Assembly (NCBI RefSeq): GCF_964019385.1
Contig: NC_088645.1
Location: forward strand, 19,891,158 to 19,955,157
Source: Sycon ciliatum
Taxonomy: Eukaryota; Porifera; Calcarea; Leucosolenida; Sycettidae
Reading direction: 5' to 3'
Length of the DNA: 64,000 nt
The notes under the pieces are model-generated. The model was not told the origin of the DNA. It made no database searches and saw only the letters and a list, made by a program, of their open reading frames with translations. The position numbers and the translations under genes were made by a program. This document shows, one piece after another, positions 3,224 through 57,119 of the stretch; positions within the stretch are counted from its first letter, which is position 1, and each line of letters starts with the position of its first letter.

Positions 3224-4058
3224 CGATGATATTGAGATTTGAGACCCATTTAGTATTTACCTCTCTACTACTACTTGCTTGTTATGATTATTGTTCTCTT
3301 TCTTCATTTTCCCTCCTGGTTTAGTCATTACACGTATTTATAATTATTATTTGGTGCAATACTAGCGCCCCTTTCTCGCACCAAATTATTATTCTTGCTA
3401 CCTGACCATGCACCCCCCCCCCCCCTTTTTTTTTCGATGCCAGGTTGCAACGCTAACGCCGAGACCCCTGGTCGGTCGAGTTGCTCCCTGTACATCGGCA
3501 CGTCGTCCCTACATCCCCTGTGTCTTGTCTTGTGTTTGTCTCCACATGTCTCTTTGTAGGGCCGTGTTCCCAAAAAAAAAAAAAATGGACTTATTTGTTG
3601 TTTTGCCTTTGAGTATATTGTGTGTGTGTATGTGTGTATTGTGTGTGTCTCTCTCCCTCTGTCTACCTGTTTGCCTGTGTGTCTGTCTGCATCGGTGTTC
3701 ATGTCCGTGCGTTTTCAACGCTCCAGACATGGGTCATGTTGACGGCCGTTTGGCCACTGCTGTTGATCGCTGGACTTCTTGTGCAATGCCTCAAGACGGG
3801 AAAGAAGAAGGACGAGGATGAGGAGGATGGAGATGGCGAAAGACGAGGTGAGTGGGTGTAGTCTGACAAGGGTAATCAAGTAGGAATACACTGCTTCTAT
3901 GTGCCAGCTGGCTGCTATCGGAGGCATGATGATTACAAGTGACGCGGAACTTTTTCCTGCTTGCCAGTGCCCACTGTTGCCTTGTGGATTGCGCTAGTGG
4001 CCATGTGATTACATCATTAATTGACGTTCTTTGTACATGATGGCATCATCATTTGACA
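3224..4058. other. no gene; simple repeats and a dispersed repeat unit
   Basis: Contains a C/T homopolymer (3411-3434), followed about 10 bp later by GGTTGCAACGCTAACGCCGA and GACCC, a unit that recurs next to other pyrimidine tracts (24.1 kb minus strand, 27.4 kb). A TG/TC-rich stretch spans 3611-3690. The long frames here run through low-complexity sequence. Confidence 0.6.
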
Positions 4059-4060
4059 TA

Positions 4061-4421
4061 CCGTATTTTACCGGTTGTAAGTCGACCCCGGTTATAAGTC
4101 GTCCCCCTATCCGGAGGTCTCAGTTCTGCGTTTTAAAGTTATCACCCAACGAAGCACTACTAACAACTCCCTGCTACTAACATATCAACAAATCATGTAA
4201 ACTTTCCTTATTGGAGGGTATAACGTCCCAGTCCTCGAAAAAGGCCAATAAACTGGCACAAATGTGTACACACGGTGCACTCGTGCATGCAGTGCAGGTC
4301 ATTTTTTGTAAAATACTGATAGTTCCCGGTTATAAGTCGAATCCCGGTTGTAAGTCGACCCCCACCCTTTCTCCTTCTATTTTTAGTCGTGAAAGGTCGA
4401 CTTACAACCGGACAAATGCGG
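4061..4421. mobile_element. TA-flanked MITE (Tc1/mariner-like)
   Basis: Terminal inverted repeats of about 21 bp (CCGTATTTTACCGGTTGTAA on the left, and the reverse complement of CTTACAACCGGACAAATGCGG on the right) are flanked by TA on both sides (4059-4060 and 4422-4423). The inside repeats the same GGTTRTAAGTCGACCC motif in both directions. It is non-coding. An imperfect 22-bp direct repeat (TGATGRCATCATCAKTTGAC) lies just outside each end, at 4038 and 4435. Confidence 0.8.
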
Positions 4422-5324: not shown

Positions 5325-6842
5325 TCAGAAACAGTTAGCAACAAGGACACTAGCCAGATCATGAAGCGCACGGTACGTTAGAACGTACAGCTTGAATTGG
5401 TACCTGACAGACAAGGGAATGATATGGTAGCGGGCAATAACAAGGGACACATCAGATACGCGGGGCATGCAAAATACAATACGCAGCGCTCTATTGCTAA
5501 GTCGGACAACACGGTCATGGAGGGAGGCAGACAGGCAGTGAGCAAAGGAATTAGACCCATACTCAAGTATGGACTGAAAGGAACAGATGTAGAAAGCCCT
5601 CTTAGCATCGATCGTTAAATGGTCTCGGACCTTTCTAAAGATTCCTAACTTACAGCCTAGTTTACGTTCTAATTGTGAAAAGTGAACTCCAAAGGAGAGA
5701 TGTTCGTCAAGAACTATACCAAGGTATATCACCTGCGAAGTGCTCTGAACTGTTGTACGAGATCTGACTGGACTGGGTGTCTGAGCATTGCACGGTGCGC
5801 CCGTTTGCGCTTAAACAATAGAAGGCGGAGTTCATCATCCATCCATCCATGGGGCTGGAGTGTATGCTTTCTTGATATTCACACGTTTAGCAGGGCAATG
5901 CTCGTCTAGTGCACCCTGAACTGCAGTCTGCCAATGTAAAATGCGTGTGTTTAGAGACTCTGGCGATGAGGCATTAGTGTGGTGGGACAGGTTGAACATT
6001 TTCTCAGCGGCTGTTTCTTGGAAATCTATGATATTCAGAGACCAAACTGGTGGCTTGCGTATCTGTATTTGTCTACTCGTCTGGTGTGGCTGAGCATCAG
6101 AATGGACGGTGAAATGAACATGAACCAGATTATGGTCTGAAATATCACACGCAACTACAGTCGAACTACTGAAGACTATATCAGTCCCGCTGAGTACTGC
6201 AGGTGGTGTGGTGAGAGTGGAGTTGGGTGCTAATAGTGAGCCTAATACTAGATCTATCGTTGTTCCGCTTGGATACCTGGTTGGTGAGGTGACAACATTT
6301 CGGAGGTCGAAATCACTACAGAGTGTTTGTAGATGAGAGTAGTGTGTATGATTAGGATCTTGTACATTCACATTGAAATCTCCTAGAACAATAGAGGAGG
6401 TGGAGGCTGGGGCATGTCTCAGCGAGTCGTCGATCAAGTCAGTGAGGATCGACCAGAAGCTTACAGGTACCGCTGGCGCTCGGTACATGCCGAATATGGT
6501 CAATGGTTGTTGGCATACATTTATCTGCACAGCAAGCACTTCCACGTCTGAGGAGTGGTGTAATCTCCGATTATCATACTCATCTCTAACATACATGCAG
6601 ACACCGCCTCCTCTCCCAGTCTGCCTGTCCTGTCTGTGCACGGTGTAGTTCGGTATGTTTATACAGTTATCAAGGACAGTGTCAGTCAACCATGTTTCAG
6701 TGAGGGTCAATACATCAATATTATGAGCATGTAGAAGTGATTTGATCTCATGCAATTTATTATAAAGACTACATACATTAATATGAGCAATACTTAGCTT
6801 GCGAGTTGTAGCTGTTGATGTTGGGGATGCCCTTGGTGTGTC
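5325..6842 (-). pseudogene. LINE ORF2: endonuclease plus truncated reverse transcriptase
   Basis: The frame opens directly after the ORF1 stop and reads an apurinic-type endonuclease: HINVCSLYNKLHEI, LTLTETWL (catalytic Glu), FGMYRAP, IVLGDFNVNV and ISDHNLVHVHF. There is no ATG before the catalytic motifs. Near 5835 the frame breaks in a short GGAT repeat that looks like a 4-bp slippage. It then continues one frame over (DELRLLLFKRKRAHRAML) to about 5745. There it jumps straight to VIYLGIVLDEHLSF and the thumb/C-terminal part, ending at 5325. The whole palm domain with its FADD box is therefore deleted. The endonuclease would nick target DNA and the lost domain would do target-primed reverse transcription. 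Confidence 0.85.
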
Positions 6843-7949
6843 CTATTGGGTCGCGTCATGGTCATGTAGCATCCGTTCGATGTCCTCATCTGTGAGCACT
6901 TTGCCTCCGGAGATAATTGTATCGCTTGGCAGGTGGCACTGTATACCCTTACTGCGAAGGGCCTTCATTTTGGGCACCAGAGCCGTTCTCCGTGCTTGTT
7001 CGGGCCATGTCAGATCGTAATGAATGTAAACATTAGCCCCTTTGAAGGTAGCGTCGCGACGGTGCCTCATCAGGGTTGCCTTGCCGCTCTCAGTTAGGGC
7101 TACGTGGACTAACCGCGGCTTTATTTGGTGGGCAGTGGTGCTTGCGTTATTTGAACCGCGCGTTCCGATACGCGATGCGGACTTCACGTCCACGGCGGCT
7201 AAATTGGGCACCAGTGTCGGCACTAGAGTCGCAAGATCTTCGGACGGGAGCTCTTCCAGGCCACGCAGTATGACATTGTTGGAGCGCAATCTGGACTCTG
7301 TGGCCTCCTCAATCAGGTCACGCACCTTGATGTGGAGGTCATTTAAGGCAGGTGTTGCCGTGCATGGTGGGTTGGGGGTGGCGCCAGCCTGGCTGCTGTT
7401 GATGTTTGCAATCTTCTTTTCCATGTTGCTAATGGCGGATTTTGCAACATTCTCTACATTATTGACGGATTCAGCACACTTGTCGACAAGCACCCTTAGC
7501 TTACGGTTCTCAGCGGTCAGTCTCCTGAGTTCCTCTCGTTGCTGATCGTGCCGCAACTCCACTGCGCACACACGTACCTTCAGCGGTTCTACGATGTCTT
7601 CAGCAACGCGGCGAAGATCATCACGCAGTTCTCGCTTGAACTCTTTTAGCATTCTGGAGAACTCAGACAGCCCGCTGCCAGCTGGGGTACTGTCGCTGGT
7701 TGTCAGCAGCACGCACGGGGTCTTGTCAGTTCCAGGTGGGCGGGGCACTGCCAGAACCGGATCGTCATCCGTGGCACGCAAACTTTCTGCTGGGCTTTCC
7801 GCTTGTCTCTTCGTAGATCTACGTTCCTTGGGCGCGGCGTCACTGTCTGAAGACCTAGAACCACTACCGAAGGGTGACTGATTCCCCCCACGGCCAGCGT
7901 GGCTTTGGGAAGTCATCTTGCGGACAAGATTCTTAACAGCTTTCGACAT
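6843..7949 (-). CDS. LINE ORF1 protein (coiled coil, RNA-binding type)
   Basis: An intact 368-residue frame. The first ~100 residues are basic and Ser/Pro-rich. Residues ~100-200 have the heptad pattern of a coiled coil (LRRLTAENRKLRVLVDKC). From ~225 the segment SNNVILRGLEELPSED starts an RRM-like RNA-binding domain of the transposase-22/L1-ORF1 type, followed by a basic C-terminal domain (TWPEQARRTALVPKMKALRS). In LINEs such proteins trimerise and coat the element RNA. The TAG stop lies in the same frame as ORF2. The frame is intact although the element is defective, so decay is recent or the protein could act in trans. Confidence 0.8.
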   Translation of the reverse strand: MSKAVKNLVRKMTSQSHAGRGGNQSPFGSGSRSSDSDAAPKERRSTKRQAESPAESLRATDDDPVLAVPRPPGTDKTPCVLLTTSDSTPAGSGLSEFSRMLKEFKRELRDDLRRVAEDIVEPLKVRVCAVELRHDQQREELRRLTAENRKLRVLVDKCAESVNNVENVAKSAISNMEKKIANINSSQAGATPNPPCTATPALNDLHIKVRDLIEEATESRLRSNNVILRGLEELPSEDLATLVPTLVPNLAAVDVKSASRIGTRGSNNASTTAHQIKPRLVHVALTESGKATLMRHRRDATFKGANVYIHYDLTWPEQARRTALVPKMKALRSKGIQCHLPSDTIISGGKVLTDEDIERMLHDHDATQ

Positions 7950-8180
7950 GGCATCCGGATTGAGTATGCGCTCTCAATTGCGAATGGCAAAGCCACAGCA
8001 CAGTGATGCACTAGCTCAAGCGAATCCATTCACTTACGCTGTGTACTTGCGCCCACAGGAGAATCCCCTCGTTCACCACCATGACGTCATCTGTACAACC
8101 TCTATAGAACAATAGAGTCAATGGTGAAGACACAGTTGAGAAGATTGCCTTTGGAGAATTTGCCTTTGGAGATCAGAAAT

Positions 8181-14659: not shown

Positions 14660-14667
14660 TTCTTGAC

Positions 14668-14689
14668 CAGGGAGTTGTACGACTCCTTG
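14668..14689. mobile_element. ultra-short palindromic insertion, 22 bp
   Basis: The insert starts CAGGGAGTTGTA and ends ACGACTCCTTG, so it is almost entirely self-complementary. It is flanked by the exact 8-bp direct repeat TTCTTGAC (14660-14667 and 14690-14697). Same family as 14777-14814, 80 bp away, and 48023-48060. Confidence 0.8.
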
Positions 14690-14776
14690 TTCTTGACCTG
14701 CCCGGTACACGAACCCCGTCGAGTTTTTTTATTATTTTTATTATTTTATATTTGTCCAGATGATATTGTTCTTAAC

Positions 14777-14814
14777 CAGGGAGTCGTCAAAAACCGGTAT
14801 TTGACGACTCCCTG
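14777..14814. mobile_element. ultra-short palindromic insertion, 38 bp
   Basis: A 38-bp palindrome beginning CAGGGAGTCGTCAAAAACC, with its near-perfect reverse complement following at once. It is flanked by the exact 8-bp direct repeat TTCTTAAC (14769-14776 and 14815-14822). The termini and 8-bp duplication are hAT-like. Confidence 0.85.
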
Positions 14815-14822
14815 TTCTTAAC

Positions 14823-21607: not shown

Positions 21608-23973
21608 ATGGAGGCGCAGGCTGTGAAGCTCTCCGAGGACGATGTGCCTGGAGCATCGTTAGGTCGGAATCCTGATGGCTCTCAACGCTTGGCAAGTCAA
21701 CTTTCCGTGAAAGAATTGAAGCGTTGGCTAGCTTGCCGTAATGCTCGTCGATCGGGAACGAAACCTGAATTGCTGAAAAGGTGAGATTTGTGCTGGGATT
21801 TTTCTTTAGACCTAATTGCAAGACGGTATGGTAATACATGTAGTGAGTAGAACCGGGAAGTAACATTGTTTGGGTTTTACGTCACTTCGCCTTTAGTTAG
21901 GAATTATCCCACATATCCTCCCATAATCATTATTTTCCTTTTTCGGTTGTCAATGTTTTCAATTTTGAAATTTATTTCGTTGTTTGGGTGTTGTTCTTTG
22001 TGTTCAACAGAGTTGAAGACTACATACGTGGTGGCTTGGCACATGAAATTGTTGACCCTGATGGTGGTGTAAACATTGCTGCTAAAGCTGAGCGTCTGAA
22101 GTCCGCAGGTGTCGTGCACCCCAATCTAAGAAGTGTCCCCCCGTTCCCCACCGAGGGATGGAAGGATAATCTAAGTCAGCTGCCATCATTCTCATTCCGA
22201 ACCCTGTATGTGCATTTCACAGAGCGGACGGTCCAGGAAGTCATCAGTGGGCACGAGATTGCAAGAGGTGACGACACTGCTGCTATTCCTGCTACTTCAC
22301 ATGCCAGTGATTCTGCTGATAGTGCTGTCGCTGCTGATAGTGCTGTCGCTGCTGATAGTGGTGTAGCTGCTGATAGTGCTGTCGCTGCTGATAGTGCTGT
22401 CGCTGCTGATAATGCTGCCGCTGCTGATAGTGCTCTCGCTGCTGAAGTTGATGACGAATGGGAGGATGATGATGGGGAGGATGACGAGGAGGTTGGTGAT
22501 TCCGGCACAGCCAAGTACAGCTCGTTCCGTGGAATAGACAAAGGGTTCAGGTTCTTCAAGTCAGGCCACATCCAGAAGATCCAGTTCAATTCACTGCCTG
22601 TCTTTCCACAATTCTGTTTTGTCCGCTGCGTCGTCCTGCCCTCTTTCCGAAAGGACAGGAAATACAACGTTCGGATATGCTGCACTGCTGGCGGTGTGTC
22701 ACATGTCCCTACGGTTCTCACTGCCTATTGCACATGCCCTGCTGGGTTAGCTGGTTCCTGTAACCACATAGCGGGCCTATTATATGCATTGGAGGACTTT
22801 GTAAGGCTTGGCCTGCGTGAAGAGGCAGCCAAAACGTGTACTGAGAAACTGATGGAATGGAATCAGCCCCGAGCAGCACGCGTCAAGGCCAGCAGAGTAA
22901 CGGAAGTCCACCTGAAGAAGGACACGTATTCAGGCAGAGATCTTGTAGAAAAGAAAAAGAGCATCCCGTTTTATGACCCCAGGCCTACAAACCGCAGATT
23001 CGTCAATCCTGAGGCAGTTGCCAGGCTGCGTACTGACTTGGAGCGCGTTGAGGAGAAGGCTCTGGCAGAGGACAAATCGGGAAAGATCAAGATGTATGGC
23101 AGCTCATGTTGGCTAAAGCTACTTGAACCTTCTCCTGTCCCAAGCCCAGATGACTCGGAATGTGACGAGGGCAGCAGCAGTGAGTCAGACAGTGAGCGCC
23201 AGATGGGTGTACCAGAGTCTTCTTGTGAGGCGCCTGTGCCTATGGCTGCTATTAATCCGGAATCGCCTGCTGATTTTTATGAACACCGTGTTGCTGTGTC
23301 CAGTGCCCGTGCAGCTGAAATTGCAAGGGAGACGAAGGGACAGTCAACTAACCTCTCCTGGTACAACGAGCGGCGACTACGAGTGACTGCAACACTTGTT
23401 AAGAGTATTGCAAGCCGACGAAGTGATGATTTCTCCACCATCATCAACAGGAAATTGGCTCCACCGCAGCATCCTACAGCGGCTATGAAGTATGGCTTAG
23501 CGCATGAATGTGATGCTGTCAAAGCCTACATCACACGTGCACAGACTTCGGATGTTCCTGTTCTCGTCGAATCCTGTGGCCTTTTCATCCATCCAACCAA
23601 ACCATGGCTTAGTGCTTCGCCTGATGGTCTAGTCATGGTCAATGGCAAACTGCAGCGTGTGGTGGAGATCAAGTGTCCTTTCACCATGCGGAATGGTATG
23701 TCGCTTCGTGAGTTTGCTGGACGGCGGACTTCATGCTTGACGGATGTTGATGGCAATTTGGTCCTCAAGCGAACGCACACCTACTACTACCAAGTTCAAA
23801 CGCAGATGTATGTTTGCGATGTGGAGGCTGCCGACTTTGTCATATGGTTTCCAGATGGTCTGTTTGTGGAAACTGTCGCTGCTGATCATTCCCTTGTGAA
23901 GGAGTTTCTGCCCCGACTGGAGAAATTTTATTTCTCGCATTACCTTCCGGCCATTCATGCTGCTCTAATGTGA
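21608..23973 (+). CDS. SAP-SWIM-YqaJ nuclease-like protein of the ISL2EU transposon
   Basis: Two exons, 21608-21780 and 22011-23973, join across a GTGAGA...TTCAACAG intron in phase 2 to a protein of about 711 residues. Residues ~30-60 are a SAP-type DNA-binding helix pair (LSVKELKRWLACRNARRSGT). Residues ~170-210 are a seven-fold DSAVAAD heptad repeat, followed by a strongly acidic stretch. A SWIM zinc finger has the ligands C298xC300x7C308xH310. The C-terminal ~220 residues are a YqaJ/lambda-exonuclease domain with E557 (YGLAHE), D596 (SPDG), E610 and K612 (VEIKCP) and a downstream YYYQVQTQMYV helix, i.e. the full PD-(D/E)xK active site. The domain family degrades DNA ends; in the transposon it probably processes DNA during transposition. 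The frame is fully open. Confidence 0.9.
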
Positions 23974-25089: not shown

Positions 25090-26742
25090 TCAGGTAGCAA
25101 CCAATGTGGGTTGGTAATTGCATAAAACACACGCTGAGAAGACAGCTTGCTCAAGAATATCAAATAAATTGTTGTCAATGACACCATCAAGAAGACGATA
25201 TTGCTTGATGCGGTTGATGGCTCTTTCCACATGAATTCTTACAGCAGCGATGGACTTCGTTTCGACAACATCCTGGGGGAGCATTTGATATGCCTTGGTG
25301 TTAAATGGTGGAATATTCAGCCGGACACCGTATGGAGCAAGGAGGTCTTGGATGTTGAAGCCCTTGTCCGCCATGACTGAGTCACCATGGTCCATCAGTG
25401 AGATGAAGCCCGAGTCAATGACTATATCCCTGTCCGAGATTGACCCCTCATACAACGTGGAGACAAAGCTGATAGTTCCGTTAGGAGTGATTCCAATGAG
25501 GGACTTGCACGTGGTGTGATTTTTGTAAGCGGAGAATGCTGCATTGTTGGTGGACAGACGGGACGGCCGCTCGATGAAAAACTCAGTGCAGTCAATAATG
25601 ACTCTAGTAGTGGGGTAGTATATCTTGAAAGATTTGGGCATGTCTTTGTCGATACGCCGACGAGACGGGAACACCAGCAATTCTTTAAAGGTCACATACA
25701 TCAAATTCACCCATGACGTGAAGTACCTTGACAGGGTTGAACTGTCCACCTTGAATCGATCTGCCAGATCGTCCAACACGAGTCCTTGCCGTAACCTGAC
25801 ACATACAAAGAAGAATTGCATCTCCAGGCTGAGTTTAGGCAATGGACCATTCTTTCTCCCGAGTCGCTCACCATCAAGCTTCGTCCTCGATCCTTTCCAA
25901 GCTCACATCTCAGCAGCGTCTGACTCCAGATAGCGAAAACATGCCATAAACATGTCAAATGACGTGAAGCCGGTGTAGAGCTTCACCATGTGGGCCTTCT
26001 CAGAGAACCTACGGATGTCAAATTTGTGCAGGACCAGGCTTTCCTTTGTCTGCCTGAGCTCCTCTTCCAATGTCTTTTGCTCTTTCCACAGTTTGGAGCA
26101 AAGACCCACACTCACATCCCGAGACGACTTAGCGGACTGCAGTTCTAAGTCAAGCTTCTCATTTTTCAAGTTCAATTCTGCTACTTGTTGCCTGAGTCTC
26201 TCCAACTCATCCACTGAGTCGTCTTGGTGGCTGCCCTCACCGTCATCCACAACCATTGCCTGAGCATCTTCGTCACTCGAACTGGAGTCTGACGTAACCG
26301 GCTTCAAGAACACCCGCTTAGCTGGTGGTTTTCGCGAAGGGCCCTGTGTCGCTGATTTATGGAACGAGAAGACGGTAGGTACTGTTCCAGGTACCAAGCG
26401 CGGTCGAGGCTTGCCACCCTTTCCCTCCTTTTGTCTTCGTTTCAAAGCACGATCACTCACAACACGATAGTCACTTTCTTGGAAGTGTAGTCCGCAAACT
26501 TTTGTTGTTTTCGGCTTCACCTTGAAGTGCTTCCCTTCATCACGACGAATGGCATGTAGCCAAGCAGACTTCAAAGCACGATCGGTTGGAAAGTCATGGA
26601 ACTTTGGTGAATTTGGTTTTCCATACTCAGATTTGCACAACGGAACACAACAGTAGCTACCAGTGACTCTAGGCTTGTCACCATCGTCTCCTGACAGAGA
26701 AGAATCGCTGCTGCCATCGGGATCAAACCCAGTCGCCGCCAT
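25090..26742 (-). pseudogene. THAP-DDE transposase with a single in-frame stop
   Basis: One continuous frame of 550 codons, broken only by TGA at codon 280 (25903-25905). It starts at M (MAATGFDPDGSSDSS); an upstream in-frame ATG at 26823 is less likely. Residues ~30-130 are a THAP zinc-binding domain (CC...C near 31-36, KFHDFP, KSAW, TKVCGLHF, ending VPTVFSF). Residues ~200-265 are a coiled coil (DELERLRQQVAELNLKNEKL). A helix-turn-helix (LDDLADRFKVDSSTLSRYF) precedes a DDE_Tnp_4 core with D384 (IIDCTEFF), D459 (ADKGF) and E506 (HVERAINRIKQY). The stop falls in the linker between the THAP/coiled-coil half and the helix-turn-helix; a CpG C-to-T change could explain it. Role: end binding and strand transfer for the ISL2EU element. 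Confidence 0.88.
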
Positions 26743-26954
26743 CACATACGGTACTACATGTACAATGTACAAAACTGAACTAAAGACACGAACAAGAAAA
26801 AAAGCACTGCACCAAACAATCAAAATAAATTTTTACAAACTCTTTGGCAAGGAAGAGGTTGCGGGCAAAGACTTTTGCCCACAACTCGGCACTTTGCCAC
26901 GGCACGCGATTACATCATCTCTCCCAAATATAGGATTACGCAATGAGCTTATGT

Positions 26955-29424: not shown

Positions 29425-29842
29425 TAAGGGCGCGTTTGGTTGGTACGACCTAGAACAGGATTCACCAGAACAGCGCGTTTGGTTGAGACTGCACCTGTTC
29501 TGGGTCGGCCAGAACATGTTCTGCTTGCTCCGGCCTTGAGGCCGGAGCTCCGGCCTTGAGGCCGGAGCAAACCGAGCAGTTTCACTTTTTCACAGTGAAA
29601 CCTGGCGGGAACGTCGATTTTGGTCCCAGATGATCACGTGTGTACGCTTTTGGGTTGGATTCGTTGTACCGTACAAAGTGACCATGGTGACCCATACACA
29701 TTTTGCAGAATGCACCAAGTTTGGCACATTTTTCATAAAAATGTGCTCTGTTTCTGGAGTACCGTTTGGTGGGCATGAGGCTGCTCCATGTGCACCAGCT
29801 GTTCGATCTTGTTCTAGATCGTACCAACCAAACGCACCCTTA
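29425..29842. mobile_element. MITE with ~33-bp inverted ends
   Basis: The left end TAAGGGCGCGTTTGGTTGGT matches the reverse complement of the right end (ACCAACCAAACGCACCCTTA) with one difference, and the match continues into ACGAYCTAGAACA. No target duplication could be recognised. A doubled GC-rich palindrome lies inside at 29528-29569. Non-coding. Confidence 0.75.
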
Positions 29843-30376: not shown

Positions 30377-30384
30377 ACGTACAC

Positions 30385-30415
30385 CAGGGAGTTGTAAATA
30401 TTTTACGACTCCCTG
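30385..30415. mobile_element. ultra-short palindromic insertion, 31 bp (older)
   Basis: Starts CAGGGAGTTGTAAA and ends TTTTACGACTCCCTG. The 8-bp flanks ACGTACAC and ATGTAGAC agree at six positions, as expected for an aged duplication. Same family as the 14.7- and 48.0-kb copies. Confidence 0.6.
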
Positions 30416-30433
30416 ATGTAGACTGTATTCCCA

Positions 30434-30455: not shown

Positions 30456-30935
30456 GTTCTTTTCCAAACGGGTCCAAGTATCCCCCCCCCCCCCCCCAAC
30501 AGGGTTGCTGACCAGGCTGACCCGGCTCTGGAGCTGACACTGTAGAAAACACATTCCTAATTATTAGTAGGGCAATAAGGGATGAGTGGCTGATAGCAGC
30601 GGTCATTGAACACCAGCAAAGTCGAAACACTTTTAAATTACACTTTCAACTCTTATAGTGCCCATTCATATGCCGTATAAAAATAATGTGATTTTTTCAT
30701 TCCCTCAACTAGTGACTATGTTATTGTTTTTCCTGTGTGGAATTATTATGTTGCGCGTGTAGATCCTGATAAGGAGGCTTCAACCAGACATCCAGGACCG
30801 ATGGCATTGCTGATCTGGTGTGCTAAGGATACAAGGACTACGCAGCCTCTACAGCCCAACGCTACTAAATACGTTCCATCGTCAACTGGAAACCAAGTAA
30901 TCTGCCGATCGTCTTTGGAAGGCATGGAACCGGTA

Positions 30936-31117
30936 CAGTATCTCCCCAATTATAAGTCACACTCGATTATATGTCGCACCCCCATTTTCAGGTTTCAGCA
31001 ATATTTTTTCGACATGATCACTTCAGTAGTAAGTCATGCTCGATTGTAAGTCGCACCCCCTTTCTCACCCTTGAATTTTGGTGTAAAAAGGTGCGACCTA
31101 TATTCGGGGAAATACGG
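30936..31117. mobile_element. TA-flanked MITE (182 bp), family A
   Basis: Ends CAGTATCTCCCCAATTATAA and the reverse complement of TATTCGGGGAAATACGG, flanked by TA (30934-30935, 31118-31119). Its sequence is clearly homologous to 50942-51122 over the full length (repeated TAAGTCGCAC motifs). Confidence 0.8.
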
Positions 31118-31738
31118 TATATGCCCAACCCTGGAGACTGGGAGTGAACATTTGCCATAAGGCATTCAAAAGGTTAGTATAAACAGTAGCGGGTTATTCC
31201 ACAAATAACCGATGGATGGAAGTTTCTCCCACTGGGGATGTAAAGGAAGACTAAAGGAATGGTAGCTAACAGTAAGTCAGCACATTTGGTGCGATTTAGA
31301 CACCAGCCGTGACCTCCCCCGCCCCATGCATACTCTGCACATAAGCCATCCTGGAATATCCTGGCACTCAGCTGATCTCTGTTCAACAGCACAGGTTTTC
31401 TTGTCTGATTTAGTACACTGTTTTTTTACCCTTGTAGTCTATTTATTATTATTATTATTATTAAAAGCATGTCCGCGTAGGTGGCGGGGGTGCCACTTTC
31501 GCTTATGCCATTCAGGATTGATGTCTGAAGAGTAATACGATACAATAAAATGACAGAAGTGACGTCAACAAAAGCCGTTAGCAACAACACCAATATGACT
31601 AATGGAAAACTTCATCCAAAGTATAAAATAAAATAGAATATGCATACAACATGTCTGGTCAGTCCTGTTAGGTGGGGCGGGCTCCACGCCATGCCTGTCG
31701 GTCCGCTGCCATTGTGCGGACTGCGTCAACGTCTATAC
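31118..31738. other. no gene; (ATT)n tract
   Basis: An (ATT)n tract at 31441-31462, followed by a stretch (AAAGCATGTCCGCGTAGGTG) that may be a LINE 3' end. Nothing coding. Confidence 0.4.
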
Positions 31739-37951: not shown

Positions 37952-38144
37952 GAGTGCGTTCGATTACACACTTGAATCGATTCTTGAATCCATTCGCATG
38001 CATTCAAGTCGTTCGATTTCATGTCATGAGCCCTGGAATCGATTCGGAATCCATTCCCTCTATTCACATGGGGTGATGTGAATAGCGCGAATCGATTCAT
38101 GAATCGATTCGTGAATCGATTCGCGCGTGTAATCGAACGCACTC
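37952..38144. mobile_element. MITE with 20-bp inverted ends and ACT duplication
   Basis: Ends GAGTGCGTTCGATTACACAC and, reverse complemented, GAGTGCGTTCGATTACACGC, flanked by ACT on both sides (37949-37951, 38145-38147). A 3-bp duplication suggests a PIF/Harbinger-type origin. The interior is dense in GAATCGATTC palindromes. Confidence 0.82.
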
Positions 38145-42683: not shown

Positions 42684-45036
42684 AGATGACTTGCACAAAG
42701 ATCCGAGCCGCGAGTGAGACGGGGCAAGTGCACCCTGGCCTGTGCACCCAGGCTACCACCCTGCGGGCACCCTAGGCTACACCGTCTGTTTAGTAGAGTG
42801 CAGTGTACTTTTTTTGTCAGCATGAATGAACAGTACACGGCATGTACATGTACATGGTCAGTACCGTCACCATGGTCACCATGGTCACCATGGTCACTGG
42901 CTTCAGCAGCTCATGTGTTATGTGCACTTGACAGTTGTAGGGTTAGTGGAAGTACATGACTGTATAATTATTACATGTACATGTGAAGAGAAAGCCAGGC
43001 GTTCAAACCAGCCCAAAAATACTCTTGCCTTATTCTTCGGTGAAATAGCTATAAAAAATTGTCTTACCAAACAACAGTGAGCATAGAAGCAACCTCGATG
43101 CACCCAATAATATGACTTCCAGGAACAGCAAGTGTTGCACGATGATCCCAAGAACACGTCAAGTTCCATGCTACCCGCCGCCATCAAAAGAACGAAGGAT
43201 AACTGTGCTAGCCTAGTTCCTATTCAATGTAACGCTAACGGTACGGGATATAGGAGCCTGTTGGGAAGGCGTGGGTGAGCTGTAAAATCCTTGTACGGTT
43301 CGCACAGCCCAACATACATGCAGCAGTTATTGCGACGGTTAACGTCGATGGACGAGAGTCATAAAGCACAGTCCATGGGGTTGACGTTTCTGGGCTTCCT
43401 TTCCGAAAGGAAAGTTTTATTTCTTCTCAAATAAAGCAGAATCATGCTGATTATACCAGTCTGTTATGAAGACAAGAAAGCAGCCATGGACATTGTGCCA
43501 TTCTAAAGGAACGACAGGTAAAAGATAAAGCACTTCATCTGAAAACTCAAGGACTATCCATAAATACAGCAAATGATAATCCTAGCCTGGTAATGTCCAA
43601 CTCCGTCATGTGAGCCAATCGGTGAGTTATCATGGGAAGCATAATGTTCGAAATGCTGAAATTTGAACAGTTGCAGTTGTGTTCGTCGCCACACAATTCC
43701 ATCGCCAGTTCACATTCGAAATGTAGCCATTTTACGCTTGTGCCCCTGTACACGGCATGGAAGGTTGAACAGATTCAACTCCTCCATTGATTCCTGATCT
43801 GTACAGTAGTGCGGTTGCGTTCCCGTTCCTGACACTCACATCCGTCTCCGCTAACCAGCATCATGAGCACTCCAATGGTTCCCGCCGCTCCTTCCGTATC
43901 GTCCCAGCGCGCCCCGTCAAAATGTGAACTACTGTAGGCAACAGAGCCAGTGTATGATGAAGATGAATGCACTGTTTGATGATGCTCCAACAAATCCTTT
44001 CACCGTTGTATGGAATTTGTAAGAAGAGTAGTGGCTCAACTGTAGGTCCAACGCAGAAGGTACCTCACAGCCCAGTTCTGTTGCCTCGTTGCAACTTAAC
44101 AGGTATGTTACTTTCCCATGAGACCCAGCCGGAGCCGCATCGTCGTCATTACCAGCTAATCATGGAGAGGTATAATGTGACTTTCCACCACTCCCTGATT
44201 CAATCATAGTTTGCGAGCCTGCGCCAAACTGCTTGCTCACTAGAGCCAGGCATTGGATACATTTTGGCTTCAGTAAGGTTTACAATGCTATGTCTCTGGC
44301 CTAAGTCCAAGTCCAGATACAGCTACTCAGAGTCAGGGCTTTTTGAAATGTTCATTTCGGAACAAGTGAGACTTCAACAGTAGCTAGTACACATCAGGCC
44401 TGAGGACTTCGCAGCGTTTCTCCAGCACACTTGTTCTCTCCTTCAACTCAGATACTACTTGAAGTACTACTAAAGGCCATCTGGCTCTCACACTCAGTCC
44501 CTCCACCCTTCATTTTCGTGGTTCGGGCTTCCACTCGTGGCTCGGCAGGTTCCTGGCCTCTCCGCAGTCTGTCCTCAGGAGAGGGTCGCTCTGGAGCTAG
44601 TGCAGCCGAATCAAAGGGAATCGAGTTCTTTCTCAGACGTCCACAAACGTTGTGCTTGACTTCGCTTCCACTGCAGGAAAGTAGTCACACTTCAGGACCA
44701 CGACATGCTTGTTGCAGCCTACACCAATGATACTAATATAATATTTCCTCATTTTTCTGCCTCCCGGCCGGCCGGCTCGGAAAGGAACCTATGGACTGGG
44801 AGCCTCACTACGGTTCCATCTCTCGTCTGCTAGTGCATTCAGGAGCGCAGCGGCGCTTCGGCATGACGATCCAAGCCGAATCAAAACAACTCTACTCTCT
44901 AGCCAAAAAAACTAGCTCAGTGTTCGTCAGGCAAAAAGCGAAAGTCACGAACTCAAAAGGTGGGGAAGTCAGAGTCAGAAGGTCCACTTGCCGCGTCTCG
45001 AACCCAGACAATCTTTGTGCAAGTCATCTATTGCCA
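42684..45036. mobile_element. DNA element inserted into the Mutator-like relic (2.35 kb)
   Basis: Perfect 24-bp inverted ends start GCAATAGATGACTTGCACAA on both sides, with a second similar block (GAGACGSGGCAAGTG) 15-20 bp further in. The element separates the N-terminal (45037-45483) and middle (42300-42683) parts of one transposase frame. No transposase of its own was recognised inside, and no flanking duplication is clear. Tandem CACCATGGT units lie at 42868-42896. Confidence 0.65.
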
Positions 45037-47512: not shown

Positions 47513-47793
47513 TAATAGGGACCTTTCGCATTTGCTACGAATCGAATGCGAAACGAAAGTTTGATTCGGCTCGTAATCGTTTCGTTGAAAACAGAATTCA
47601 GGTTTCGCAAGTCGTCATGCAAATGTCCATGGCAACTACGAATACGGCCAGGAGCTTGGCGAGTTGGCGCGGCGTACGGGTGTTTACACGCACACGTGCA
47701 TGGATCAGGGAATCAAGGGCAAAAATGTGTACCTGGCAAAACATGTGTACCTGGCCAAATAAATGTGTACCTGACGGATTCGGAGCGTGCCAC

Positions 47794-47814
47794 CAAGAGT
47801 ACATAAACCTCTTG
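47794..47814. mobile_element. 21-bp palindromic insertion in the left arm
   Basis: CAAGAG, nine bases, CTCTTG, flanked by GTGCCAC on both sides (47787-47793, 47815-47821). The opposite arm has a single GTGCCAC at this point (reverse complement at 47962-47968) and no insert. Confidence 0.75.
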
Positions 47815-48022
47815 GTGCCACGAATGAAGAGGCTTCCATTCGTGAAAACGAGCTCTCCGCAGGGACTCTGACGAATCCTCGAACCTGGGTTCACCTGGGT
47901 TCGAGGATTCGTCAGAGTCGCCGCGGAGAGCTCGTTTTCACGAATGAAAGCCTCTTCATTCGTGGCACGCTCCGAATCCGTCAGGTACACATTTATTTGG
48001 GTATTCGTAGTTGCCATCATAT

Positions 48023-48060
48023 CAGGGAGTAGTACAATACCGGTATTGTACTACTCCCTG
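48023..48060. mobile_element. 38-bp perfect palindromic insertion in the right arm
   Basis: CAGGGAGTAGTACAATACC followed by its exact reverse complement. GTTGCCAT lies at 48010-48017 and again at 48061-48068, with five extra bases (CATAT) on the left. The opposite arm shows one ATGGCAAC (47629-47636) and no insert. Confidence 0.88.
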
Positions 48061-48191
48061 GTTGCCATGCAGATTTGCATTACGACTCGCGAAACCTGAA
48101 TTCTGTTTTCAACGAAACGATTACGAGACGCATCAAACTATTTACTTTCGTTTCGCATTCGATTCGTAGCAAATGTGAAAGGTCCCTATTA

Positions 48192-50677: not shown

Positions 50678-50941
50678 GTTGTGCGTGCGGAGATATAATA
50701 GGACATGATTGTACCGGTAGATGTACATGTAGATGTACTGAAGTATGTAGTAAATTTTCAACTCTGAGTTTCTCTCGTGTCGATAGATGTGATGGAAAGT
50801 AGGAAAATGTTAAAAAGAAAATTAATGGTCATATGCACCATCAAGATATCAGGCAGCACTGCAAGCGTAGATCGAGAGCCAGATGTTGCGCAATTGATGT
50901 CATTGGCAAGACTAAGAGCATGCATGTACCTGATTCAAATA

Positions 50942-51122
50942 CCGTGTTTCCCCGATTATAAGTCGCACTCGATTATAAGTCGCACCCCCATTTCCAGGTT
51001 TGAGCAATATTGTTTGATATATTGACTTCAGTAGTAAGTCATGCTCGATTGTAAGTCGTACCCCCTTTTTCACCCTTGATTTTTAGTGTATAAAGGTGCG
51101 ACCTAGAATCGGGGAAATACGG
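50942..51122. mobile_element. TA-flanked MITE (181 bp), family A, second copy
   Basis: Starts CCGTGTTTCCCCGATTATAA and ends ATCGGGGAAATACGG, preceded by TA; the right TA has drifted to TG. Full-length homologue of 30936-31117. Confidence 0.82.
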
Positions 51123-51258
51123 TGCATGTACAGCCAGGCGTAATAAATGCGCAAGAAAATGTTGAGAAGGGAGATTCCTAGTTGTAGAGGTGTCATGTAG
51201 CCGCTCAAAATCGTCTACTGATCAATGCATGCGATAGAGAGCTGCTCACTGCGGCGGA

Positions 51259-56361: not shown

Positions 56362-56414
56362 AATTCCAAGGCTAATGTTGTCATAGTTATTATGACAACA
56401 TTAGCCTTGGAATT
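56362..56414. repeat. 53-bp perfect palindrome (24-bp arms)
   Basis: AATTCCAAGGCTAATGTTGT plus CATA, a 5-base centre, then the exact reverse complement. No flanking duplication. Its perfection implies recent origin. Confidence 0.9.
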
Positions 56415-56671
56415 CTGAATATTGTCACATGGCATTGCATGTGCGGGAAGTAAAAGTTCGGATTTCCGCATAGTGACTTCCTTGTGACTTCAGAGAATGT
56501 TGGTCGTGTGTGATTAAAGATTTCATTTGCTTTGAGATATGTTGCAACATAAGTCATGCGTGACCGTTCCATTAGTCTCCAGAGCATGGACGTACATTAT
56601 GATCACACATGCATCTATCTGCCCTCCCCATCTCATACTAGAACATGCAGTCGTGCAGTCATGTCATGAGA

Positions 56672-56753
56672 CGAGGGAGTTACATAAACCGGTTTGTCTA
56701 CAACTCCCTGCTCTCATCCGGGGAGCTGCATACACCGGGTGTACAACCCCCTG
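56672..56753. mobile_element. double ultra-short palindromic insertion
   Basis: Two adjacent palindromes of 39 bp (GAGGGAGTTACATAAACC ... ACAACTCCCTG) and 35 bp (CGGGGAGCTGCATACACC ... GTACAACCCCCTG) are separated by 8 bp, CTCTCATC. The outer flanks CATGAGAC (56665-56672) and GATGCGAC (56754-56761) agree at six of eight bases. Diverged members of the CAGGGAG family, perhaps one inserted beside the other. Confidence 0.55.
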
Positions 56754-57119
56754 GATGCGACCGTGCTTGAACAGTTCACTGCAAATAATTATAATTATCC
56801 CCTCAGTACCATGACTTCGCACACTGACTCCACTCCCAGAACAACATTCAACGCCGTGATTTGAAAACCGGTCAATTAGTATTCACTTGGAAAGGGTTAA
56901 CGTTATGGTATCCAGGTAAGTTTTGTTGAGAAGTAGGGAAAAAGACAGGGAAAAAATAAATGTTGAGATATACAGGATGAGTGTGGTTCTAGGTGAGAAG
57001 GTAGCCGTAAGTGGCATAGGGGGATAGAGAGAAGGGGAGAGAAATAAAAAGGCAGATATTGAGTCCGTTGAGCAGCCGTTTCTGGTCCATCACTTCCCAT
57101 GGGTCCGTAGGAATCCCAC

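Follow-up and report, generated by a model that had tools for sequence, protein, structure and literature searches.

Among the closest described counterparts of the palindromes reported here are the hAT-type MITEs, such as Mar of Drosophila and the viral hAT-NA, which are likewise small and non-coding and carry inverted ends and target duplications. Inverted ends of the CAGGG type (CAG...) are usual for hAT elements. The target duplications are reported to be 8 bp long for the relatives of Mar and 2-8 bp long across a set of viral MITEs (PMC3517528, PMC6004678). The target of Hermes is given as NTNNNNAN (PMC10368747, PMC2803484), and hobo, which produces an 8-bp duplication like that seen here, has the target GTNCGNAC (PMC3276498); nTnnnnAn is the published hAT target pattern (PMC10368747, PMC2803484, PMC3276498). 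According to PMC10368747, the hAT transposases that have been studied need approximately 100-200 bp of each end: for the left end of Hermes the critical point of truncation falls between 140 and 190 bp, while the ends needed are 200 and 150 bp for Tol2, at least 200 bp for Ac and approximately 100 bp for Tag1.

The palindromes considered here lie in a 64-kb window, by which we mean the whole stretch of DNA that was analysed. Positions count from its first base; flanks and target duplications are read on the plus strand unless stated otherwise, and palindromes are given without strand. A first-pass annotation had claimed two palindromes, each with exact 8-bp flanking repeats, and direct reading of the sequence confirms both: TTCTTGAC-CAGGGAGTTGTACGACTCCTTG-TTCTTGAC occupies positions 14660-14697, and TTCTTAAC-CAGGGAGTCGTCAAAAACCGGTATTTGACGACTCCCTG-TTCTTAAC occupies positions 14769-14822. 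Copy 1 is the 22-bp sequence CAGGGAGTTGTACGACTCCTTG at 14668-14689, which is without an ACCGGT centre and lies between target duplications TTCTTGAC at 14660-14667 and 14690-14697. Its palindrome is imperfect, with only 9 of 11 arm positions pairing and a right end that reads CTCCTTG. Copy 2, at 14777-14814, is a 38-bp palindrome with an ACCGGT centre and arms that pair at 18 of 19 positions, making it nearly perfect; its target duplications TTCTTAAC are at 14769-14776 and 14815-14822. Because the neighbouring target bases equal the end bases of the element, the direct repeat can also be read as 10 bp at copy 1 (GTTCTTGACC) and as 12 bp at copy 2 (TGTTCTTAACCA), and it is the palindrome boundary that fixes the duplication length at 8 bp. 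The annotation had also described the elements as little more than two inverted ends, and this description holds: at 22-38 bp, they contain nothing beyond two arms.

We considered the interval 14668-14814 (147 bp) as one composite element, since its flanks agree at 7 of 8 positions, but copies 1 and 2 each have exact flanks of their own, so two insertions are the simpler account. The first-pass annotation had noted that the two targets resemble each other (TTCTTRAC) and had suggested target preference or local duplication. Duplication of a flank-element-flank cassette was rejected, since the similarity between the two sites stops one base outside the flanks; for the same reason target preference is favoured, if not proven, on this comparison, and may explain part of the likeness. 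TTCTTRAC also occurs in the window at 7930, 5706 and 41419, with no family palindrome at any of these three sites.

We scanned the window for palindromic ends of 8 bp with at most one mismatch, spanning 16-80 bp and bounded by exact 8-bp flanks, with low-complexity spans dropped. Four places were found: 14668, 14777, 3351-3384 and 38098-38113, the last of which falls within a nested palindrome. The same scan of 200 dinucleotide-preserving shuffles found one place in 7 of them and two places in none. Those 7 shuffles are what can be said for the idea that chance palindromes have met with chance flanks. Against it stand the 0 of 200 shuffles with two such places, the presence of five related palindromes where a shuffle has at most one, and the uninterrupted twin site of copy 4 described below, and we find this idea scarcely credible. 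The nine non-family palindromes on our list for the window have flanks that match at 0-4 of 8 positions. The family members on that list score 8 (14777), 3 (48023, which has an offset) and 0 (30380-30420), the last with a boundary drawn five bases too wide. As a separate observation, the interval 3342-3392 holds a 33-bp stretch, TTGGTGCAATACTAGCGCCCCTTTCTCGCACCA, between 9-bp repeats AATTATTAT. It is possibly another tiny element, but the flank is AT-rich, and no relative turned up when the window was searched with a 17-base sequence from one end. Nested tandem palindromes are present at 29525-29570 and 38085-38126, one composed of GCTCCGGCCTTGAGGCCGGA units and the other of repeated GAATCGATTC motifs.

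The two reported palindromes belong to a dispersed family. In the window we observed four clear copies of 22, 38, 31 and 38 bp (at 14668, 14777, 30385 and 48023) and a diverged tandem pair of 38 and 35 bp (56673-56753), so that the six lengths found in 64 kb are 22, 31, 35, 38, 38 and 38 bp; the copies at 30385, 48023 and 56673-56753 were absent from the first-pass annotation. Copy 3 is the 31-bp sequence CAGGGAGTTGTAAATATTTTACGACTCCCTG at 30385-30415, whose centre is missing, and its flanks, ACGTACAC at 30377-30384 and ATGTAGAC at 30416-30423, match at 6 of 8 positions and are possibly a decayed duplication. The ends CAGGGAG and CTCCCTG are exact in three of the six copies, whereas 14668 and 56673 have one mismatch each and 56719 has two. 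The sequence CAGGGAGTCGT with at most two mismatches occurs at 28 places in the window against 14.2 expected, and several of these are paired. When CAGGGAGT..ACTCCCTG pairs were sought with at most one mismatch in total and a span of up to 60 bp, five were observed in the window, and 200 shuffled windows yielded one pair in 10 cases and two in none; the motif was derived from the reported pair, and the independent part of this count is 30385, 48023 and 56673. Comparison of 14777 with 48023 by blastn gives E=7e-6. A family profile returns five of the six copies at E values of 4e-9 to 5e-5, which are not independent, the same six copies having built the profile, and copy 1 by itself has E=0.065 in this search. 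Half-matches at 4163, 44164-44197, 50508 and 50629 were rejected as family copies, being at chance level. The copies show the traits of MITEs, in that they are non-coding, dispersed repeats with inverted ends and target duplication. A dispersed repeat with motifs like GATTATAAGTCGCACTC, its copies 62-88% alike, occupies 4059-4134, 30934-31130 and 50940-51135, and the window also contains long microsatellites.

The centre of the element varies among the copies. The ACCGGT centre of the 38-bp copies is missing from the 22- and 31-bp copies; it occurs in the same register and at the same length in 14777 and 48023, and 56673 has the same 38-bp length with ACCGGT shifted by one base. Palindromes are prone to central deletion, and the copies could in principle be remnants of longer hAT MITEs that inserted at full length and whose middles were later removed by hairpin-driven deletion, as the missing centres of the two shorter copies would allow. 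However, independent deletions would hardly have left the common centre, register and length of 14777 and 48023, with 56673 only one base off, and apart from the span of copies 1-2 the window holds no longer element with the family ends, so we think it unlikely that the copies are such remnants. That negative result comes from a search for the family ends with flanks matching at 7 or more of 8 positions over distances of up to 6 kb; the first-pass annotation had suggested a search for a longer hAT element with the same ends. Likewise, a search of the window for other CA..TG ends, with 10-bp arms, at most two mismatches and lengths of up to 800 bp, returned only the span of copies 1-2.

The flanking repeats were compared at the exact register of each palindrome. 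They match at 8 of 8 positions for 14668 and 14777 and at 6 of 8 for 30385, while those of 48023 match at 8 of 8 with a five-base offset and at 3 of 8 without it. Exact 8-bp duplications, the length seen in hAT elements, are thereby present at 14660/14690, 14769/14815 and 48010/48061 (with CATAT between), and duplications matching at 6 of 8 positions are present at 30377/30416 and on the outside of the tandem pair. When spans of 31-38 bp are drawn at random, flanks that match at 6 or more of 8 positions occur in about 0.6% of places. If a slack of ±6 bases is permitted, an 8/8 flank occurs in 3.2% of random spans, and the offset match at 48023 is therefore convincing only in combination with the twin arm.

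Copy 4 (48023-48060) is a perfect 38-bp palindrome with an ACCGGT centre, and it lies in a long fold-back sequence (47513-48191), at the inner edge of one of the two arms. The arms of this sequence, 47513-47636 and 48061-48191, are inverted with respect to one another and are 89% identical over 131 columns. The fold-back sequence has the ends TAATAGGGACC...GGTCCCTATTA and an inner 130-bp palindrome at 47827-47956. In the filled arm, the order is GTATTCGTAGTTGCCAT, CATAT, palindrome, GTTGCCAT, GCAGATTTGCAT; the left target duplication GTTGCCAT is at 48010-48017, the right one is at 48061-48068, and the five extra bases CATAT between the left duplication and the palindrome (48018-48022) are unexplained. 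In the other arm, the twin site is uninterrupted, with GTATTCGTAGTTGCCAT directly continued by GGACATTTGCAT on the minus strand at 47629-47645 (coordinates from the alignment). Relative to the twin arm, the filled arm has three additions, namely the palindrome, CATAT and a second GTTGCCAT, and once these are removed the arms align without a gap at the junction. To the left of the junction the two arms are identical over 17 of 17 bases; the duplication accounts for 8 of these, which leaves 9 (GTATTCGTA) as independent evidence. Inward of GTATTCGTA the fold-back arms differ. To the right, 120 columns contain 7 mismatches and one 7-column gap. The arm alignment scores 212 with the insert removed and 194 with the insert kept. 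This presence/absence difference at an 8-bp direct repeat is best read as an insertion of copy 4; the twin arm is the strongest of our observations and provides good evidence that this copy inserted here. Alternatively, the palindrome could have been lost by deletion between both copies of GTTGCCAT, as is known for palindromes between direct repeats. Since such a deletion would look alike, the twin arm gives presence and absence rather than direction, and the deletion alternative itself presupposes a palindrome that lay between direct repeats.

The tandem pair extends over 56665-56761 in the order CATGAGAC, copy 5, CTCTCATC, copy 6, GATGCGAC. Copy 5 (56673-56710) is 38 bp long and diverged, reading GAGGGAGT...ACCGGT...ACTCCCTG, with arms that pair at 11 of 19 positions. 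Copy 6 (56719-56753) is the diverged 35-bp sequence CGGGGAGCTGCATACACCGGGTGTACAACCCCCTG, with arms that pair at 11 of 17. The left flank CATGAGAC (56665-56672) and the right flank GATGCGAC (56754-56761) agree with each other at 6 of 8 positions. The spacer at 56711-56718, if taken on the minus strand, reads GATGAGAG and agrees with both outer flanks, at 6 of 8 positions each, against 2 of 8 for its direct reading; considered singly, copies 5 and 6 have flanks that match at 2 of 8. When every position of the window is examined for the same flank-spacer geometry, 51 of 63,860 positions match, with either spacer orientation allowed and low-complexity sequence included. These data suggest, no more than that, three copies of a single target of which the middle one is inverted, and an inverted middle target could have come from recombination between two palindromes or from a hairpin intermediate. 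Tandem hAT MITEs have been reported at inversion breakpoints in cod (PMC12368964). Approximately 260 bp from copy 5, at 56362-56414, there is also a near-perfect palindrome of 53 bp whose 8-bp flanks do not match.

Because the element is palindromic, its targets have no fixed reading direction, and we oriented them to agree. The five oriented targets are TTCTTGAC, TTCTTAAC, ATGTAGAC (other flank ACGTACAC), ATGGCAAC and CATGAGAC (other flank GATGCGAC). All five end in AC, and an RAC end is common to every oriented target except the second flank of copy 3, a regularity that was noticed post hoc and is weak as a test. The pattern nTnnnnAn is present in four of the five targets (three if copy 3 is represented by its left flank, ACGTACAC, and not by its right one), the target of the tandem pair being without T at position 2. 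At the window frequency of 0.068 the probability of four in five is about 1e-4 with the sites taken as independent, and copies 1 and 2, whose targets are nearly identical, may be non-independent events.

The same targets bear on the possibility that elements of this anatomy were moved by a transposase of the P superfamily instead of hAT. The P element produces an 8-bp duplication at GTCCGGAC and 1360 a 7-bp duplication at GTTNAAC (PMC3276498), and these targets end in AC, as do all five of the oriented targets here. Their other motifs are unlike those observed here: the CCGG middle of the P-element target occurs in none of the five, and the AC end is the only part of GTCCGGAC that agrees with all of them, a mismatch that is nonetheless compatible with the superfamily, in which targets vary. 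The nTnnnnAn pattern in four of five targets and the CAGGG-type ends also speak for hAT, although P targets fit this pattern too. On balance, a P-superfamily transposase is possible but unlikely.

We next turn to the relationship between the two arms. The 38-bp copies at 14777 and 48023 differ at seven positions, six of which are mirror-paired; the probability of this by chance is 0.0024 for the whole element and 0.015 if only the interior is considered. A test of base-pair covariation on the 38-bp copies points in the expected direction: paired positions are preserved in 84% of cells compared to 76% in shuffles, a score equalled by 6 of 500 shuffles. However, this test involves only three sequences, and 7 of the 19 pairs vary only by broken pairs. 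Arms that change together could reflect either several perfect source palindromes or a step in the life cycle that restores palindromy. As single strands, copies 2, 3 and 4 fold far better than their shuffles (z from -8.5 to -9.3), copies 1 and 5 do so moderately (z of -2.7 and -2.5) and copy 6 shows no advantage over its shuffles (z of 0.34). The mirror-paired differences, together with the other, unrelated palindromes of the window, are also what might be expected if template-switch replication or hairpin repair had made the palindromes, with the flanking repeats as a by-product. Such an origin leaves unexplained why a common end sequence recurs at dispersed sites and why these sites have 8-bp flanks and a target pattern, and we judge it very improbable.

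Given these observations, we consider it probable that the palindromes constitute an ultra-short, TIR-only family of non-autonomous hAT-type DNA transposons that would be moved in trans by a transposase encoded elsewhere. The dispersed family, the exact 8-bp flanks at three sites (one with five added bases) and the one uninterrupted twin are observed; we infer the transposase class, the mobilisation in trans and the origin of the 22- and 31-bp copies as centre-deleted derivatives. Membership in hAT is tentative, its basis being the ends, the duplication length and the target pattern. The first-pass annotation had proposed hAT-type transposition, and the family, the 8-bp flanks, the twin arm and the hAT-type targets all favour that proposal; against it, no longer element was found in the window, and Pfam scans detected no hAT domain in 39 distinct ORFs out of the 139 that run from stop to stop over at least 95 aa. 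The ORFs of the window include adjacent THAP and DDE_Tnp_4 ORFs at 25090-26832, which are probably one DNA transposon gene, and two neighbouring minus-strand ORFs at 5835-7973, one with a retrotransposon-type endonuclease domain, which represent a probable non-LTR element. A 661-aa ORF at 21988-23973 has a YqaJ-like recombinase domain and an internal 18-bp tandem repeat, and at least eight protein relatives of 38-48% identity were found among the best 7,999 word-sharing candidates scored. Taken with the long microsatellites, these ORFs suggest that the window comes from an animal nuclear genome.

In the mechanism we propose, the founding unit would be a 38-bp palindrome in which two inverted ends (CAGGGAGTnGT...ACnACTCCCTG) meet around a central ACCGGT. 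A hAT transposase from elsewhere in the genome would recognise these ends and cut at CA/TG, insertion across an 8-bp target of roughly the form nTnnnnAC would duplicate the target, and the 22- and 31-bp copies would arise by loss of the centre. An element of 22-38 bp has no room for the long subterminal regions that studied hAT members need in cis, regions that are a functional need of those members and not a definition of the superfamily. In addition, a 38-bp duplex is too stiff for easy end-to-end pairing. A folded form, either cruciform or hairpin, would solve the problem of end pairing, and this is the boldest and most speculative of our readings. In such a route, each strand of the 38-bp palindrome would fold into a hairpin whose base resembles one transposon end, so that one short palindrome would offer two adjacent ends without bending of the 38-bp duplex. 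The two hairpins would then be inserted on opposite strands of the 8-bp target, and the chromosome would be healed by opening and joining of the hairpin tips. This route would regenerate near-perfect palindromes with arms that change together, would lead to the loss of the centre in the 22- and 31-bp copies, and could also generate the T-E-T'-E-T arrangement at 56665-56761, in which the spacer is inverted. Nevertheless, we regard a hairpin route as decidedly unlikely in comparison with a linear excised segment.

If the 38-bp palindrome is mobile, two adjoining ends with hardly anything else can make up a eukaryotic transposon. Such a unit would be much shorter than the cis sequences that the hAT transposases studied so far have been measured to require, and would have a direct bearing on the pairing of transposon ends. 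Families of this kind would escape annotation that looks for longer elements. With six copies in 64 kb, this family could be large across the genome.

Among known elements, Galileo of the P superfamily has a fold-back form and is of large size. Kat1, a domesticated hAT transposase of Kluyveromyces lactis, is relevant to the handling of palindromes in that its hAT chemistry is reported to make hairpin-capped ends; unlike the miniature element described here, it is an enzyme of mating-type switching (PMC4763223). No hAT element of 22-38 bp was present among the matches listed in the open-licence literature, which accords with the earlier suggestion that such elements are undescribed without proving their absence from print. 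The 38-bp form, with its ends and ACCGGT fixed, had 0 matches in viral and prokaryote genome contigs, a result that is uninformative for eukaryotes. Among autonomous hAT elements, Hermes likewise makes an 8-bp duplication at an nTnnnnAn target and has 17-bp TIRs, approximately the length of one 19-bp arm here (PMC10368747). Nonetheless, none of the long ends of Hermes, Tol2, Ac and Tag1 could fit in a unit of 22-38 bp. The reported MITEs are also longer: the viral set, which spans several superfamilies, measures 116-422 bp, and Mar PCR fragments are approximately 270-450 bp in most species (PMC3517528, PMC6004678), compared to 22-38 bp here. On the best-supported reading, the TIR-only unit would be an extreme hAT-type miniature element, far shorter than the MITEs with which we have compared it.
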